From a virus, in IMG/VR virus record IMGVR_UViG_3300035034_000710, positions 1-38,739 of that record: DNA of 38,739 bases; one strand, given 5' to 3'. Every line of letters begins with the position of its first letter. The first letter of the stretch is position 1. Below are positions 2,860 through 30,900 of this stretch, in pieces. Position numbers and translations under genes: made by a program. The notes beneath the pieces were generated by a model. The model had not been told where the DNA came from and did no database searches. It was given only the letters and a program-made list of their open reading frames with translations.

Positions 2860-4350
2860 ATGACTGTCATTCTCAATGGTAAGAAAAGCATACATTTAGG
2901 CGCACAAGCGTTTATTGTGGAAGATGCCCGTGAGATCGCTTCTTCGAGCTGGGCCGATAGAGCTATGGTCAATAACGATGCGTACAAGTGGGTGCGTGGT
3001 CGTTTCGTTGAAGCTGATAATGCTAACCGTAACGGTCAGATGTGGAGCCACGACGACCTTGTTATGGCTAAGCCAAGTATCCAGTATTCCCCTATGAACA
3101 TGCTTCATCAGGCGAAAAACATTGTTGGCGCTTTTGTTGACACTGAACTCGTTTACCCTGAAGGCGATCAGGCTCAGGTATCGAATGCTTACATCGAAGC
3201 TCTTGGTGTGTTCTGGAAGTTCTATCACCCTGAAGCCTATTCTGAGGTGCAGAAAGCACACGAACAAGGCAAATTGTTTTACTCAATGGAGTGCGTGTCG
3301 GAATCAATCCAATTCACGGCTCCTGATGGCAGACAATCTGATGTCCTAGCTTACGCCGGCACTATCTCTGATTCTTACGGTGAGTGGAATAACCGTGGGT
3401 CTGAAGTGACCCGCCAGCTAATCAACCCCCATTTCATTGGTGGAGCCTTGATCCTTCCTCCTGCTAGTCCTGGTTGGGCTAATGCGGAGATCACAGAACT
3501 TTCTTCGTTGATGAATGAATGCAACGAAGAGCTTGAGAAGACTTACAAGCAACTCGCTAATGAGCATTCTCACTTGGACGCTAATGAACTTGAGAGTATC
3601 ACTCTTGAGCTTTTGCGTAGAGATTCGGTTAGTTCATCCTCTGATGATTCAATTACTGAGGATGATACGCCGAAATTAGTTGTGTTCGACACTAAGTTCG
3701 AAAACAGCGATGAAAGCAATGAAGAAAACAACAACCCCAGTAAAGGAGGTGACATGACTACTACTTTTTCCCAGGAACAGGTTGACGCAATGATTGCCGA
3801 AGCCCTCACTCCTATGCAGGAAGAGCTTAGCGTACTACGAGCTAAGTCCGATGCTGAGGAAGTTGAAACTCAGATTGCGGCTCTTACAGAGCAGTATGAC
3901 TCTGAGGTAGCTGAGATTCGTTCGCAGCTAGACGCAAAGGTCCTTGAGGCCGCTGCTGCAACTGCTAAGTATGACGAGCTTGTTACGATGCTAGAAGATG
4001 CAGCAACTGCTGAGGCAGAAGCCGCTGAGCGTGCAGAGCGACTTGAGAGTCGTCTTGCACAGATCGAGGAAGTTGCTAACTTCCCCGAGGATTATATTGC
4101 AGCACAGAGCGACCGTTGGGCAGCAATGTCCGATGAAGCTTTCGAAGCAACTTTGGCTGACTACACGGCAGTAGCCGCTGGTATGCCAGATTTCATGAAG
4201 AAGAAGAAGAAGAAGGAAGACGAAACTGATCTTCCTGACAAGTCTGTCTTGAATTCAGGTGCCGGTCGTGAAGAGGCCAGCGCTAAAGGCAGTGTTATCA
4301 ATAAAGGGTCTCTTCAGGCCCTACGCAACGTAGATTATTCTACACTCTAA
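2860..4350 (+). CDS. Prohead protease fused to a scaffold domain
   Basis: 496 aa; GAGG lies 8 nt before the ATG. Residues 1 to about 210 look like a herpesvirus/phage-type serine prohead protease: a His in the segment NMLHQAKNIVG and a Ser in FYSMECVSESI are the candidate catalytic pair. About residues 215-298 form an acidic, low-complexity linker. From residue 299 the chain is Gln/Glu/Ala-rich and predicted coiled coil, typical of a scaffold. Near the end there is a run of six Lys (atg followed by repeated aag). The protease would be packaged in the prohead through its scaffold domain and digest scaffold before DNA filling. It lies between portal and capsid genes, as in lambda C/Nu3-like arrangements. 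Confidence 0.82.
   Translation: MTVILNGKKSIHLGAQAFIVEDAREIASSSWADRAMVNNDAYKWVRGRFVEADNANRNGQMWSHDDLVMAKPSIQYSPMNMLHQAKNIVGAFVDTELVYPEGDQAQVSNAYIEALGVFWKFYHPEAYSEVQKAHEQGKLFYSMECVSESIQFTAPDGRQSDVLAYAGTISDSYGEWNNRGSEVTRQLINPHFIGGALILPPASPGWANAEITELSSLMNECNEELEKTYKQLANEHSHLDANELESITLELLRRDSVSSSSDDSITEDDTPKLVVFDTKFENSDESNEENNNPSKGGDMTTTFSQEQVDAMIAEALTPMQEELSVLRAKSDAEEVETQIAALTEQYDSEVAEIRSQLDAKVLEAAAATAKYDELVTMLEDAATAEAEAAERAERLESRLAQIEEVANFPEDYIAAQSDRWAAMSDEAFEATLADYTAVAAGMPDFMKKKKKKEDETDLPDKSVLNSGAGREEASAKGSVINKGSLQALRNVDYSTL
3754..4350 (+). CDS. Scaffold protein from an internal in-frame start in the protease gene
   Basis: An ATG at 3754 (codon 299 of the protease frame) is preceded by AAAGGAGGTGAC ending directly at it. 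This is one of the strongest Shine-Dalgarno elements in the window and almost the same as the one before the major capsid gene. The product would be 198 aa, starting MTTTFSQEQVDAMIAEAL, with a long coiled coil (VLRAKSDAEEVE to RLAQIEEVANF), a six-Lys run and a basic, Ser/Gly-rich end. Lambda makes its Nu3 scaffold from within gene C in the same way. Translation from this site is inferred. Confidence 0.8.
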   Translation: MTTTFSQEQVDAMIAEALTPMQEELSVLRAKSDAEEVETQIAALTEQYDSEVAEIRSQLDAKVLEAAAATAKYDELVTMLEDAATAEAEAAERAERLESRLAQIEEVANFPEDYIAAQSDRWAAMSDEAFEATLADYTAVAAGMPDFMKKKKKKEDETDLPDKSVLNSGAGREEASAKGSVINKGSLQALRNVDYSTL

Positions 4351-4373
4351 CTGATTAGGAAAGGAGGCGAACA

Positions 4374-4982
4374 ATGAGCAACTATGGTAGAAATTTCGAG
4401 TTTCGAGTAGCCCCAGTCAGCAAGGATCGTTCAGGACGTAATTTCCTAGACGGTGCGGCTGTACCGATCGGCGCTCCTGTGGCTTACGGCACAGGCGGAA
4501 CTGTTGGTGGGCTAAACGAATTGGGTCTTCGCCCGTTCGTACTTGCAGCCGATGAGGCTTACACTCCAGTTCCCGGTCAGGGCGGAGTGGCAATTTACGA
4601 GTACGGGCCTAGCGCCTTTGCTGGCGACGACATTTTGCTTACTACTTTCTCCGACAAGGACACAGTCCCTGCTGGAGCAGCCATTCAGGTTGTTAGTGGT
4701 ACATATGTAAAGGTCGTTCTTCGTAACATCCCTGCATTCACCTTTAGCAGTGTCCGTGCATACACGGGACGTAACATGATCAGGCCAGCCGACACGGGTT
4801 CTCTCGCTGTTGGTGACGGTCTTATCCCCGGTGTGGGAACCGACACAGGCGGTTACTGGAGAGCTAACGGCGCAGTTTCTGTCGCTACTCCGGGTGAAGC
4901 TTGGCTTATCGTCGAGCGTATCGCAAGTTTCGAAATCCACGGAGAGACAGGTTTCGAAGTCGAAGCCCGTCTTAACTTCTAA
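4374..4982 (+). CDS. Putative capsid decoration or accessory head protein
   Basis: 202 aa with a strong site AAAGGAGGCG 5 nt before the ATG. The sequence is rich in Gly, Ala, Val and Thr and reads as a beta-rich protein without membrane segments or catalytic motifs. It sits between the scaffold and the major capsid protein, 15 nt from the next start, where head decoration or stabilising proteins often lie. The function is inferred from position only. Confidence 0.7.
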   Translation: MSNYGRNFEFRVAPVSKDRSGRNFLDGAAVPIGAPVAYGTGGTVGGLNELGLRPFVLAADEAYTPVPGQGGVAIYEYGPSAFAGDDILLTTFSDKDTVPAGAAIQVVSGTYVKVVLRNIPAFTFSSVRAYTGRNMIRPADTGSLAVGDGLIPGVGTDTGGYWRANGAVSVATPGEAWLIVERIASFEIHGETGFEVEARLNF

Positions 4983-13155: not shown

Positions 13156-13195
13156 GCCGCCTTAACTCAGTCTGGTCAGAGTGCCACTCTGTAAA
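13156..13195 (+). pseudogene. 5' half of a tRNA-Tyr(GTA), truncated after the anticodon loop
   Basis: Acceptor GCCGCCT, D-arm ACTC-AGTCTGGTCA-GAGT, 5' anticodon stem CCACT and loop CTGTAAA (anticodon GTA) are all present, then the sequence runs straight into the tRNA-Thr gene. No matching AGTGG or AGGCGGC follows. This is the only Tyr tRNA sequence in the cluster. Confidence 0.75.
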
Positions 13196-13196
13196 T

Positions 13197-13268
13197 GCCC
13201 TTTTAGTATAATGGCTATTACATCTGTTTTGTAATCAGAAGATGAAAGTTCGATTCTTTCAAGGGGCT
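13197..13268 (+). tRNA. tRNA-Thr(TGT)
   Basis: Acceptor GCCCTTT/AAGGGGC, anticodon loop TTTGTAA, T-arm GAAAG-TTCGATT-CTTTC. The anticodon stem has one U-U mismatch next to the loop. Directly abuts the tRNA-Tyr fragment. Confidence 0.85.
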
Positions 13269-13440: not shown

Positions 13441-13588
13441 GCGGTTATAGCATAGTGGTAATGCTCCAGTTTTCCTGTGACTATGGTGTCAATGGTAGCA
13501 CTCCTGACTTCCAATCAGAAGGTGAGAGTTCGAATCTCTCTAGTCATTCCAAGCAGTTACGAGAGTTCGATTCTCTGTAGCCGCTCCA
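13441..13588 (+). pseudogene. tRNA-Gly interrupted at its anticodon loop by a second tRNA-Gly
   Basis: The 5' half (13441-13475) has acceptor GCGGTTA, D-arm GCAT-AGTGGTA-ATGC, stem CCAGT and the anticodon TCC. The 3' half (13549-13588) has the T-arm GAGAG-TTCGATT-CTCTG, acceptor TAGCCGC, discriminator T and CCA. The acceptor halves pair fully. Between them lies a complete tRNA-Gly(TCC). The 3' anticodon stem does not match CCAGT, so the outer tRNA is likely inactive unless it is rearranged. Confidence 0.65.
13477..13548 (+). tRNA. tRNA-Gly(TCC), nested inside another tRNA-Gly
   Basis: Acceptor GTGACTA/TAGTCAT (first pair G-U), D-arm GTGT/GCAC, anticodon loop CTTCCAA, T-arm GAGAG-TTCGAAT-CTCTC, discriminator T, CCA encoded at 13549-13551. 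One C-A mismatch at the base of the anticodon stem. Confidence 0.82.
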
Positions 13589-13617
13589 AGCAACCTCTGC
13601 TAACGTGGAGGCTCTGC

Positions 13618-14236: not shown

Positions 14237-14283
14237 GCATAGAGGGTACGGCTTATAGTGGGGTTCGAATCCCCGCCTATGCA
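14237..14283 (+). pseudogene. Mini-tRNA remnant: acceptor plus T-arm only
   Basis: GCATAGA/CCTATGC acceptor (6 of 7 pairs) and T-arm TGGGG-TTCGAAT-CCCCG are intact, but only about 15 nt lie where the D and anticodon arms should be. It keeps the parts recognised by RNase P and the CCA enzyme. Confidence 0.6.
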
Positions 14284-14286
14284 CGA

Positions 14287-14341: not shown

Positions 14342-14415
14342 TGCGGTATCGTATAATGGCACTACGTTCGGTTCTGGTCCAGAAAAGTGATGCAGCTTTA
14401 CAAAGACGTACTGCT
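14342..14415 (+). pseudogene. Degenerate tRNA-Gln(CTG)
   Basis: The 5' half is tRNA-Gln-like (acceptor TGCGGTA, D-arm around CGTATAATGGCACTACG, loop TTCTGGT), but the T-arm is disrupted (GCAG and CTGC separated by about 15 nt without TTCGA) and no TACCGCA follows. Confidence 0.6.
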
Positions 14416-14438
14416 CGTAAGTATGATATAATAGAACT

Positions 14439-14482
14439 GGTAGAGAGTCAGGGTCTCGTGGATGGCACCTTGACTCTCTACC
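14439..14482 (+). other. Long inter-tRNA stem-loop
   Basis: GGTAGAGAGTCA pairs perfectly with TGACTCTCTACC (12 bp), 20-nt loop. A TATAAT hexamer (14427-14432) lies just upstream but lacks a -35 box. Confidence 0.75.
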
Positions 14483-14522
14483 GTGAAGTCATCCACCGCC
14501 ATCCAAGCAAAGAGAATCAATT

Positions 14523-15090
14523 ATGAAGACCTGTAACAAGTGCAAGAAAGACAAAGCTTTCAGCGAGTTTCATAAGGGCGGTCGTGCAAAGGATCGGCCG
14601 TCAGGGCAACTGCAAGGCCTGTAATCGTGAGTACAGGCAGACGAACAAAGAAGCTATCGCCGGGCAACAGCGTGTGTATCGCCAGACCAACAAGGTTGCG
14701 ATTGCCGAGTACATGCGTGTGTACGACAACACAGGCACCTGTGTTGACTGTGGTGGGTCTTGCTACCGCTCAGCAGATCGTTGCAACCCTTGCATGGGTA
14801 GAGCGAGGATCGGCGTCGGTAACCCTCGTTGGCAGGGCGACAACATTAGCTACGGGGCAGCACACGACAGGGTTTATGCCGCCCACGGTCCAGCTTCTGA
14901 CCATCAGTGCGTCGATTGCAATGGGGAAGCCCGAGAGTGGAGCTATAAGCACGGTGACCCGAACGAGTTAACTCAACTAGTGGAGGGATACATGCTGGCG
15001 TACAGTTGTGATCCCAGCTACTACGAACCACGCTGCGTACCGTGTCATAGGTCCTACGATCTTCAAGAGGCCCACCCTCAACTCGTGTAG
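14523..15090 (+). CDS. HNH homing endonuclease requiring a +1 shift at CGG
   Basis: From ATG 14523 the frame reads MKTCNKCKKDKAFSEFHKGG, then RAKD, and reaches CGG at 14595; the zero frame stops 9 codons later. Skipping the C reads GGC and continues GRQGNCKACNREYRQTNKEA to 15090, restoring the usual CxxC...DGxQGxCKxC zinc finger of these enzymes. The C-terminal half has HNH/zinc features (CVDCNGEAREWSYKHGDP, RCVPCHRSYD). Total about 188 aa with the shift. A GTG at 14584 could start a truncated form. Free-standing HNH genes in phage tRNA clusters are usually mobile. Confidence 0.75.
14595..14598 (+). other. CGGC +1 recoding site (HNH gene)
   Basis: In-frame GAT-CGG-CCG; reading GAT-(C)GGC-CGT keeps the conserved KDGRQGNC sequence. 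It is the only in-frame CGG in this gene. Confidence 0.6.
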
Positions 15091-15141
15091 TAACAAACAA
15101 CAAGGGGAATCTAAAATGAATCCCCTTCCTAAAAAGTGCAA

Positions 15142-15194
15142 AGCAGTAGGGTGCCGGGGCCAGGGGGGAGGGAGTTCGATTCTCTCTACCGCTA
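15142..15194 (+). pseudogene. Second mini-tRNA remnant: acceptor plus T-arm
   Basis: AGCAGTA/TACCGCT acceptor (6 of 7 pairs), T-arm GGGAG-TTCGATT-CTCTC, discriminator A and encoded CCA (15195-15197). Only about 21 G-rich nt replace the D and anticodon arms. Confidence 0.55.
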
Positions 15195-15205
15195 CCATCC
15201 TAAAC

Positions 15206-16226: not shown

Positions 16227-16264
16227 GGATGTTTAACTCAGTTGGTAGAGTATCTCTTTTCTCA
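16227..16264 (+). pseudogene. 5' half of a tRNA, broken in the anticodon arm before an HNH gene
   Basis: Acceptor GGATGTT, D-arm ACTC-AGTTGGTA-GAGT, stem TCTCT and loop TTTCTCA, then no 3' half. The HNH gene follows 31 nt later. The segment ATGGATGTTTAACTCAGTT nearly repeats at the tRNA-Val on the other side of that gene. Confidence 0.65.
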
Positions 16265-16295: not shown

Positions 16296-16880
16296 ATGAA
16301 ACATTGTACTATCTGTGGCGACAAGCTTTACTCTAAAGATTTCTGCAACAAGCACTACCAGCGTTGGAGAAAGCATGGAGATCCCTTGATAGTTAGAGGG
16401 CGATCTAAGTCGGGTAGTCCTGGTGTGAATCAAGTGCCAGAAAGTCAATTCGTTGAGATTGTAGAAGAATCAACTTCTTATGCTGAGTGTCTGCGAAAGT
16501 TGCAACTGAAAGCTGCTGGAGGATCTTATAAGGTTCTACAGGAAAGAATCTCAAGACTAAACCTTGACACTTCACATTTTCTCGGTCAAGCCCACGGCAA
16601 AAGTTCGAATAGGCTACGTGCAGAGGAAGTGCTAAAGCTAGGCACTAAGAATAGAAACGGGGTGGTTCGTAGAATCCTGTTTGAAGAACTTAAATGGAGC
16701 AAGACCTGTTCTGTTTGCGGCGTCGAAGATCAGTGGCAAGGGCGTCCGATGACGTTGGAGCTTGATCATATCAACGGAATAAACACAGACAATAGGGCTG
16801 AGAATCTAAGGTTTTTGTGCCCCAATTGTCATAGCCAGACAGACACTTTCTCTGTAGGAGTGTCAAGCATGGACGATTAA
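16296..16880 (+). CDS. HNH homing endonuclease
   Basis: 194 aa. N-terminal zinc finger CTICGDKLYSKDFCNKHYQR, a helical middle with HTH-like character (SYAECLRKLQLKAAGGSYKV), and a C-terminal HNH core CSVCGVEDQWQGRPMTLELD, HINGINTDNRAENL, CPNCHSQ. It lies between a broken tRNA half and tRNA-Val, and its last codons GAC GAT TAA are the first bases of tRNA-Val. This looks like an insertion at a tRNA. Promoter abuts the start, no ribosome site. Confidence 0.88.
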   Translation: MKHCTICGDKLYSKDFCNKHYQRWRKHGDPLIVRGRSKSGSPGVNQVPESQFVEIVEESTSYAECLRKLQLKAAGGSYKVLQERISRLNLDTSHFLGQAHGKSSNRLRAEEVLKLGTKNRNGVVRRILFEELKWSKTCSVCGVEDQWQGRPMTLELDHINGINTDNRAENLRFLCPNCHSQTDTFSVGVSSMDD

Positions 16881-18948: not shown

Positions 18949-19179
18949 ATGATTCATAAACGAAATTATACAACCAGATATCTCACTATCTTTTTGAAGG
19001 GCTTGGGAGTCTTCTACAAGCATTCTTTGGCGATGCATTCGGAAGCCACAGTCTATTCTATTTTCTCTGATTCCAGAGAAAGGGAAAACATTGTCTCCAA
19101 AGCCCCGTCATGGGCAAAAAGGACCAGAGTCAATGTTTCTTCGGCATACCATCTTCCTAGTCACTGGCAGCTCGCATAG
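18949..19179 (+). CDS. Basic hypothetical protein between tRNAs
   Basis: 76 aa, filling the gap between tRNA-Arg and the next tRNA-like gene. GAGG within the tRNA-Arg 3' end (18941-18944) is 4 nt before the ATG. Basic, aromatic-rich (MIHKRNYTTRYLTIFLKGLG). Could be a chance ORF. Confidence 0.45.
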   Translation: MIHKRNYTTRYLTIFLKGLGVFYKHSLAMHSEATVYSIFSDSRERENIVSKAPSWAKRTRVNVSSAYHLPSHWQLA

Positions 19180-19260
19180 GGGTGTAGCATAATGGGATTG
19201 CTCGGGGTTTTGGTCCCCGCATGATCAGGTTCGATTGGCGAGACAAAGGGACAAACCTGG
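19179..19260 (+). pseudogene. Degenerate tRNA-Gln(TTG)
   Basis: Acceptor 5' GGGGTGT, D-arm and perfect anticodon stem CGGGG/CCCCG with loop TTTTGGT are present. The T-arm CAGG/CCTG is split by about 26 nt (TTCGATT plus an insertion) and no ACACCCC follows. Confidence 0.65.
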
Positions 19261-27911: not shown

Positions 27912-30900
27912 ATGCGTGACATTCAAAACATTTGGGATAAGTGGACTGACGGTAACGGCGAAATGGTCGGCGATAGCCGTCCGATCGGCAGGGTGACTGT
28001 AGAGAAGGATTTCTATCTGAACCTTTCTGAAACTAATGTGGGGCTATCTAACCGTGGGCCTTTCCGTTGGTATCAGCGTTTTGCGAACGATCAAGTCGAA
28101 ACAGAAATACCGAACATCAAAACTATTCAGATTCAGCGTTCCATCGACTCTGATGCAGCCACTTGTAGTATCACTTTGAATAACATGTGGCACGAGAACT
28201 TTGGAGAGGTGACCGGCGCTGTGGGGCAACTTGGGCTGCCAGGGTACCTTGGGCCTGACTACGGCGCCACAGGGGAAGCTGAGGCCCGCTGGGGGCAAAC
28301 CAGGAACGCATGGTCTAGGGTTTTGGTCCCTAACGCTCTGATCCGTACTTATGAGGGGTTCGGCGGGTTCAAAGACACGGCGGCTACCCCTACCGCTAAT
28401 CAGGACGAGTTGAAAGAGTTGTCTGAAGCTTTGGCTGACGGTGACACGATGCTTACGGGTGTTTGGCTTGTTGATAGGGTCACGACTGGCACTAATGGTT
28501 TGTTGACTTTGACTTGTCGCGATATGGCCAAGTTGTTGATTGATCAGATGTTGTATCCGCCGTTGATTCCTTCGGTCCAGTACCCGTTGCAGTACTGCCG
28601 CTACGACGATCAGTCCTATGATGCTTCTTTCGATCCTCGCGAGCCTAGAGTTCGTGAGGAAGGTGTCACTGCCGATGTTCCTTTGGTTTACAAGGATTCT
28701 TCTGCTGACAGGTGGTACGGATTCAACGCCAAGGTACACGGGCACAGACCTACTGATGCTCTTGATGGCAACACTGAAACTTATGCGTATTCTGTGGGTA
28801 ACGGGCACCCCTCTCGACCATTTTGTGCTGATTTCTGGGAGTTTGAACCTCAGGGGGCAATAAATCAGGTTTACCTTCACACCTGGAAGCAGGGCTATGA
28901 GGTTTACATCAGTGTTAAAGAGAATGGTGTTTGGCATGGCGAATCCCGTGTCTTGTATGATCACGTCCCGCTTCTTACTTCTCAACCATCAGCATTGAAC
29001 CCTGATACGGGGGCTGATCAGCTTTATGTCCTCAAAACAGGTGTCGCAAGCGAAGTTGGTTTTTGGATTACTTTGCCTCGCGTTTATCAGGCTGAGCGTC
29101 TGCGTGTCACCTTCAGGCAGCATTACAAATCCCCCCACGGTCCGTTCTTTTATCGTGCGGGTATTCGTGAACTGAAGGCTCGTGTTGACACAAGTGTTCG
29201 CACAGAGGATAGAAGTATTTGGCATTACGATATGGCTCCGGTTCCTGGCGGGGACGGCTACTACGTAGTTGACCATGACGCTTTCGTGTATGCTTTTGGT
29301 GAGGCTAGGGAACAAGCCTACAATCCTAATACTCCTAACCGTTACGGCGGCGGAGTAGACAGAGGTACTATTGCTATTGCTATTGTCCCAACTTCTACCA
29401 ACGAAGGTTACTGGGTTCTACAAGGGGACGGTAAAGTACTTTGTTTCGGAGACGCTGAATGGTACGGGGATGCTAACGGATCCACTAACCCCGTTGAGGG
29501 CAAAAAGTATTTGGATATGGCAGCTAAGTTCGACGATTCTGGGTACTGGATTCTTGGCACAAACGGAAGTATTGAGGCGTTCAACGTAACAAACTACGGT
29601 GACGTCACCGGGGTAGACACCCTATATAGGGCTGTGGAATCTCACCCGTCACTGGATGGGTATTGGATCGCAGACCAAGATGGAACGGTCACAGCCTTTG
29701 GTTCTGCCCCTGACCACGGATCTCTTTCCGGGACACTGGTCGGGCAGGAACGAATCACAGAAATTCAGTCGAACAGCGACGGAACAGGTTACTGGCTGCT
29801 AGCTTTGGGTGGCAGCGTGTTCGCTATCGGCGCAGCCACAAATTTCGGTGAACCTCAAAACGTCAATATGCAAAACACTGCTGACAATCAGGTAGATTGG
29901 GCTTCGTTTGAACGTTTCTCACGCCTTTCGTATGGCTTTGCGGCTAACCGATTCGATGACGGGTACTGGGTGATGCAAACTGACGGTCAGATCCACATGT
30001 TCGGTGCAGCCAATTTCTATGGCCAGCCGGGTGGTATTGGTCTTCAACGTCAAGACGGCAATTATTGTGTGGATATTGACACGGAGATTCTTACCAAGCG
30101 CGGGTGGCTGAAGTATGATGAAGTTGTTGAGGGAGATCAGACAATTGGCCTTAACTATAAAACAGGTCTTTCTGAATGGACTGAAGTTTCTAAGGTAAGC
30201 GTCTTTGATGTGGTTGATGAGCCTATGTTGAATGTTGACAGGAATAACATGAAGAGTCTGTCTACATTGGATCATAAATGGCTTGTCAATCATAGTAGGT
30301 TTGGTTGGCAGTGGAGAACTTCTGATTGTCTTGATATTCAATCCAAGATTCCTACCACTTCTGTCGGAGCTGTCGGTTTCGCTTCTGACAAAACCCTTTC
30401 TGATGATCTTGTCGAATTGCTAGCTTGGTTTTGGACTGAAGGCAGTTTTGGAACTTATGATAAGTCTGATTACAGAGCTTCCCTTTCTCAATCTAGGTTT
30501 GCGAACCCAGAACTAGTAAATAGAATTGATGATTTGCTAGAGAGATTGTATGGCTCTTCTGGATCGCTTGCTGATGGGGCTCATTGGAGTAGGCGAGAAA
30601 GGAAAGGCTCGGGTACTGTTGAATATCGTCTAAAAAGCAAAATAAGAGACTCTCTGGCTAACATGATGGACTTCGATAAGACCATCAATTATGAAGTTGT
30701 CAACAGTTTGACAAAAGATCAGGCTCAACTATTTGTTGATGTCTCTATCCTAGCTGATGGTTCTGAAAGAGATAATGGCTACAGGGTTATCAGTCAGAAA
30801 CTAAAGCCCAGGCTTGATGTGTTTTATGGTATTTGTATTAGACTTGGGATTGCTTGCCGAATGGTTGAGCTGTCTGATGGTTGGAGTTTGAGTCTTCTTC

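Follow-up and report, generated by a model that had tools for sequence, protein, structure and literature searches.

A tRNA-Gly gene nested in the anticodon loop of another in a viral tRNA array, and similar arrangements in other viruses and small-genome bacteria

tRNA genes with interruptions have long been studied, yet to our knowledge in none of them is the inserted sequence another tRNA. A search of the open-access literature likewise returned no description of nested tRNA genes of this type, the term 'nested tRNA' being used there for a different case. In archaea and eukaryotes, the canonical site of tRNA introns is position 37/38 (PMC4090602). The viral locus analyzed here shares with these intron-containing genes a break in the anticodon loop, located behind position 36 or 37. 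It differs from them in that the insert is a complete tRNA, no bulge-helix-bulge signal stands out and no splicing endonuclease was detected in 16 bacterial genomes that carry comparable nests. Group I introns of bacterial tRNA genes are also inserted in the anticodon region and have known homing endonucleases, whereas the viral insert is a tRNA of ~75 nt with no Rfam group I match; the phage group I introns seen up to a 2014 review were all located in protein genes (PMC3984707).

Split and permuted tRNA genes share with nests the genomic separation of tRNA halves, but the halves of a nest keep their order and have a complete tRNA between them, in most cases of the same isotype. The pseudogenes and remnants of phage tRNA arrays are damaged, as is the outer gene described below, but a nest is a recurrent arrangement in which both halves are still present on either side of a complete gene. 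Finally, SegB, a phage endonuclease, is reported to cut within tRNA genes and to cause a tRNA segment to be amplified. As here, endonuclease genes then reside among tRNA genes, and breaks inside the latter lead to copy-number change; in the part of that source consulted, tandem repeats and no nesting are described (PMC13096335). Moreover, the endonuclease gene in our array is of the HNH and not the GIY-YIG type.

Anatomy and condition of the nested tRNA-Gly genes

The window, that is, the whole stretch of DNA analyzed, is a virus record of 38,739 bp. Its tRNA array extends over ~13.15-19.47 kb, and ARAGORN predicts 27 tRNAs and a tmRNA there. Close to the start of this array lie the following features.

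13441..13475, + strand: 5' half of the outer tRNA-Gly(UCC), with acceptor (13441-13447), D-arm (13450-13464), 5' strand CCAGT of the anticodon stem (13466-13470) and loop TTTCC (13471-13475); from the sequence, ARAGORN on the joined halves and the half finder
13477..13551, + strand: complete inner tRNA-Gly(TCC), CCA included; ARAGORN and Rfam RF00005 (57.6 bits)
13552..13588, + strand: 3' half of the outer tRNA-Gly, with remains of the anticodon stem, T-arm (13561-13577, with a G49 x G65 mismatch), acceptor (13578-13584), and U73 and CCA (13585-13588); from the sequence, the joined-tRNA call and the match to tRNA-Gly of T4 and a Caulobacter phage

The first-pass annotation had proposed that one tRNA-Gly lies within the anticodon loop of another, and this is confirmed: a complete, intact inner tRNA, the sole tRNA-Gly that ARAGORN detects across the window, is enclosed by cognate outer halves. 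The outer acceptor strands GCGGTTA and TAGCCGC, said to pair perfectly, do form 7/7 pairs; the wording was slightly too strong, as six are Watson-Crick and one is a G-U pair (T5-G68). Equally good pairing between non-cognate acceptor strands is found in 0/600 combinations within the array and in 0.15% of 595,516 across 773 viral tRNAs. When joined, the outer halves are called as tRNA-Gly(tcc) by ARAGORN and are 75-76% identical, over 97-99% of their length, to the tRNA-Gly of T4-like phages and Caulobacter phage CcrBL9. From this acceptor pairing and end-to-end similarity, the outer gene is a true former tRNA-Gly(UCC). The break had been placed directly behind the anticodon TCC and is indeed near it, one base (T13476) separating TCC from the inner tRNA. 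If 13477-13551 is removed exactly, a 7-nt loop remains, TTTCCTA, in which UCC is the anticodon.

The outer gene is damaged. In the joined halves, the anticodon stem CCAGT/GCAGT retains 3/5 pairs and the T-stem 4/5, so that the product has three disrupted stem pairs and a variable loop of 3 nt. The stretch corresponding to positions 39-48 measures 8 nt as against 9-10 nt in 24/24 scorable viral Gly(TCC) tRNAs, and thus lacks one base or more. The outer anticodon stem, too, seems to have lost bases. A 4-base variable loop TTAC together with a stem partner for CCAGT would require bases that are presumably now missing. The motif TCCAAGCA occurs behind both the inner and the outer acceptor (13548-13555 and 13585-13592); therefore, the apparent outer anticodon stem may in part be 3' flank imported with the inner tRNA. 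This 8-mer is not rare, with four copies in the window where about two are expected. The sharing of TCCAAGCA makes the 3' junction ambiguous and bears on an earlier suggestion that the loop had recombined with a 3' CCA end. The inner tRNA, reported to end in TTCCAA, ends in ATTCCA, the next A being flank. TTCC(AA) is common to the loop and the inner end, as that suggestion supposed, but the longer TCCAAGCA is shared by the two 3' ends, and recombination between the loop and a CCA end is a candidate route.

The folding energy of the 161-nt transcript is no better than that of shuffled sequences (z -0.98), and the predicted structure contains no nested cloverleaves; instead, the inner T-arm pairs with the outer T-arm. 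At the junctions, the best bulge-helix-bulge candidate is equalled or beaten by 20% of random windows, so that no signal stands out, and Rfam yields no group I intron or ribozyme core in the window or the array. In view of the stem damage, the short 39-48 stretch, the ordinary fold and the unremarkable bulge-helix-bulge candidate, the outer gene is regarded as broken. Its cloverleaf is more damaged than those of the neighbouring tRNAs, as in a tRNA pseudogene, and it is probably non-functional.

Further tRNA fragments and endonuclease genes are found in the same array.

13156..13196, + strand: Tyr-like tRNA 5' half with loop CTGTAAA, which stops at the anticodon arm, where a complete tRNA-Thr(TGT) adjoins it at 13197; half finder and sequence reading
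14342..15197, + strand: possible second interrupted tRNA, weaker than the Gly case; half finder (6/7 acceptor pairs by eye) and sequence reading
16227..16264, + strand: tRNA 5' half stopping at the anticodon loop, ~30 nt upstream of the HNH gene; half finder and sequence reading
16296..16880, + strand: HNH endonuclease gene; Pfam HNH PF01844 (E 1.6e-5) and BLASTP (1e-34 and 1e-9)

The possible second interrupted gene consists of a Gln(CTG)-like 5' half at 14342, a zinc-finger/HNH-like and apparently frameshifted reading frame (14584-15090) for which Pfam gives no match, and a tRNA 3' half at 15170-15197. The segments 14237-14285 and 15146-15197 can also be read as short acceptor and T-arm remnants that resemble a minihelix (6/7 acceptor pairs by eye). 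Elsewhere in the window, a tRNA-Gln(TTG)-like gene at 19178-19250 has an intact anticodon arm and lacks its 3' end beyond the T-loop, and two long open frames, portal-like (137-2809) and tail-like (27912-31001), contain intein-like stretches, the tail-like frame terminating inside its intein-like part.

Ten relatives of the virus were identified by their major capsid protein (65-74% identity). ARAGORN detected no tRNA genes in their fetched flanks, and the only relative with a large tRNA array, G004 (163 kb), carries it elsewhere and shows no meaningful similarity to the window locus. Exact and relaxed patterns of the outer 5' half had no match in IMG/VR, nor had the window array in a search for near sequences in INPHARED, and the two endonuclease-like genes flanking the array gave distant matches only. 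The insertion history at the window locus is therefore unobserved, as no close relative carrying an empty or a nested version was found in IMG/VR, INPHARED or the major-capsid relatives. Within its tRNA array (L042), G004 has a class A RNase P RNA (4257-4528; Rfam RF00010, 120 bits) near a tmRNA, with RtcB encoded in the same genome. At 1391-1461 of this array, a tRNA 3' half is followed by a Gln-like 5' half abutting a tRNA-Asp, an order that looks permuted, with acceptors that do not match.

Nests in other viruses and in small-genome bacteria

Scans for a half followed by a tRNA, or for a tRNA followed by a 3' half, gave debris only, and the window nest seemed unique; this view was overturned by a search pattern written for the nested geometry itself. 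A second procedure joined the flanks of every complete tRNA. Applied to 1567 complete tRNAs, flank joining revealed six genuine outer genes in which the acceptor forms 7/7 pairs and a further one, L254, in which it forms 6/7, and no 7/7 case in two runs with shuffled flanks. The same arrangement is present in at least six other viral contigs, among them L212, L240, L243, L265 and L254; L277 also fits the geometry, with a decayed T-stem. A match at L250 proved to be an artefact fusing neighbouring genes, and weak candidates at L042, L187, L205, L223, L228 and L237 were not accepted. At L066, L068, L136 and L056, a 5' half ending near the anticodon stands directly in front of a complete tRNA whose anticodon is the same (Trp, Trp, Asn and Thr, respectively).

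L254 is Cellulophaga phage phi4:1, and its nest locus is identical in the separately deposited record of phi17:2; the nested gene is a tRNA-Ile, at 143233-143305 of KC821632. The cleanest viral nest is L265, where the stems of an outer tRNA-Gln(UUG) are intact, the loop becomes TTTTGGC again once 73 nt are taken out, and the predicted RNA fold closes the outer stems around the insert (z -2.6). The corresponding genome (G012, 172,833 bp) encodes a T4 Rnl1-family ligase (PF09511, E 5e-16). The inner tRNA of L265 (5426-5499) has the anticodon CUA and may therefore be an amber suppressor, the outer one being a tRNA-Gln. The relation between outer and inner isotype also looks mixed at L240.

Endonuclease genes stand beside several of these nests. 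The HNH protein of the window is 40% identical to the one adjoining the nested tRNA-Gln of L265 and related to the one adjoining the L277 nest, and a GIY-YIG-like gene is located near L243. No recognizable endonuclease was present among the scanned neighbour genes of L212 and L254. The proximity is anecdotal.

The nested-geometry pattern also matched a bacterial metagenome-assembled genome of ~0.4 Mb (L282, bacterium isolate AUK254), whose relatives are nested too. A covariance model built from three nests of this type was run on 247 genomes of one small-genome bacterial order and gave many full-length matches. Twenty distinct nested pairs were checked, covering Ala, Asp, Glu, Gly, Ile, Met, Pro, Thr and Val. 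Their outer genes show mismatches at 0/140 acceptor and 2/100 T-stem positions, both counts being biased by a detection filter of at least 6/7 acceptor and at least 4/5 T-stem pairs; in the D-stem, which is outside the script filter though in the model, the count is 0/79. Most bacterial outer genes lack an anticodon, and in place of the anticodon loop a GC-rich helix such as CCCCGCCCTTT...AAAGGGCGGGG bears the inner tRNA, the anticodon-arm helices measuring 6-14 bp. The window locus has no such GC clamp, and its outer stems are not intact. For L282, a cloverleaf within a cloverleaf is predicted (z -4.66).

At least one bacterial relative has a damaged shell, the outer gene of G047 being partly decayed, and in L287 (Candidatus Moraniibacteriota) what looks like an Ala-in-Ala nest has a partly decayed acceptor. 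According to our script, 3/30 tRNAs of genome G013 are nested, each the only copy found of its anticodon in a genome that is perhaps incomplete; for this reason, the bacterial inner tRNAs are probably working genes. In the same genome, a tRNA-Trp at L384 1327-1575 appears, by reading, to be three deep, with a complete tRNA-Trp preceded by two Trp-like 5' halves, whose anticodon loops are readable, and followed by two 3' halves. The idea that inner and outer gene always share their isotype was abandoned, as in a leave-one-out comparison 14/20 bacterial outer genes are closest to their own isotype, two tie, three are not closest and one is unscored. No archaeal splicing endonuclease (PF01974) scored above cut-off in the 16 bacterial genomes with nests, four archaeal controls being positive.

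Origin of the nests and their meaning

The best explanation for the window locus, which we hold to be reasonably probable, is that an intact tRNA-Gly(UCC) invaded the anticodon loop of an older isoacceptor gene in the array, the inner copy now being the working gene and the outer one decaying. Such a nest would arise when a homing endonuclease breaks a tRNA gene and the break is repaired with a copy of a tRNA of the same kind, leaving the surrounding halves behind. Host RNase P and 3'-end processing would then free the inner tRNA from the transcript, while the outer tRNA-Gly would have lost its function. In favor of this account, we count the intact inner tRNA, the genuine but damaged outer gene, the ordinary fold of the transcript, the other 5' halves that end at the anticodon, the recurrence of the arrangement, the endonuclease neighbours and the reported action of SegB on tRNA genes (PMC13096335). 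Against it stand the unobserved insertion history, the anecdotal nature of the endonuclease proximity and the perfectly paired bacterial shells, which simple decay does not explain.

These shells suggest that nesting can be maintained, and insulation of near-identical sequences, help in processing and re-ligation are candidate roles. The outer tRNA might be a folded shell that insulates the inner one or aids its processing, its self-folding preventing mispairing between the two. The mismatch-free acceptor and D-stems and the 6-14-bp anticodon-arm helices of the 20 bacterial pairs, as well as the double cloverleaf of L282, agree with such a role, as does the window fold, where the two T-arms pair together. 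However, the damage and the missing GC clamp of the window outer gene speak against it, and paired outer genes were favored by both the model and the filters through which the bacterial set was obtained. We consider this reading rather unlikely.

More doubtful still is that the inner tRNA behaves like an intron, RNase P and 3' processing excising it and an RNA ligase sealing the resulting 3'-OH and 5'-phosphate ends into a working outer tRNA. The chemistry of T4 Rnl1 suits such ends; RtcB seals others. The restored UCC loop of the window is what this route would produce, and L265 combines an intact outer tRNA-Gln(UUG), a restored loop, a closed fold and an Rnl1-family ligase in one genome. The first-pass annotation had considered this excision and re-joining for the window copy, where the evidence does not support it: the product would be too short and would contain three disrupted stem pairs along with a variable loop of 3 nt, the fold of the transcript does not improve on that of shuffled sequence, no bulge-helix-bulge is apparent, and no T4-type RNA ligase (Rnl1 or Rnl2) was found in the window or in relatives G001-G007, records of 20-163 kb that are perhaps fragments; PF09511 gave no match in any control genome either. 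Further, the RtcB encoded by G004, G010 and G013 seals ends of another type, and most bacterial outer genes have no anticodon for re-joining to restore.

Chance juxtaposition of two unrelated tRNA fragments round a complete tRNA, or an assembly artefact, is very improbable: tRNA debris is common in phage arrays (a stray T-arm follows 88/1986 tRNAs, at loci mostly picked for such debris) and the window is a metagenomic record, but the acceptor match has no equal in the array, known tRNA-Gly can be aligned end to end with the joined outer halves, and the identity of the same-kind nest in the separate phi4:1 and phi17:2 records makes an artefact unlikely.

Besides the invasion-and-decay account of the window, a broader proposal can be put forward tentatively, at slightly less than an even chance. 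Nested tRNA genes would constitute a distinct architecture, up to three deep and usually pairing tRNAs for the same amino acid, that originated repeatedly in phages and is under selection in the bacterial order, the outer tRNA serving as a shell or being re-joined and the window representing a decaying phage example.

Gene finders that report the inner tRNA only leave nested outer tRNAs hidden. As phi4:1 and phi17:2 are isolates, the question of the nests is open to testing. Should the bacterial shells prove functional, the substrates of RNase P, of 3' processing and perhaps of ligation would include precursors of a type not known to have been described. If nests are repeatedly made by endonucleases that attack anticodon loops, they would be a visible trace of the growth and turnover of phage tRNA arrays.
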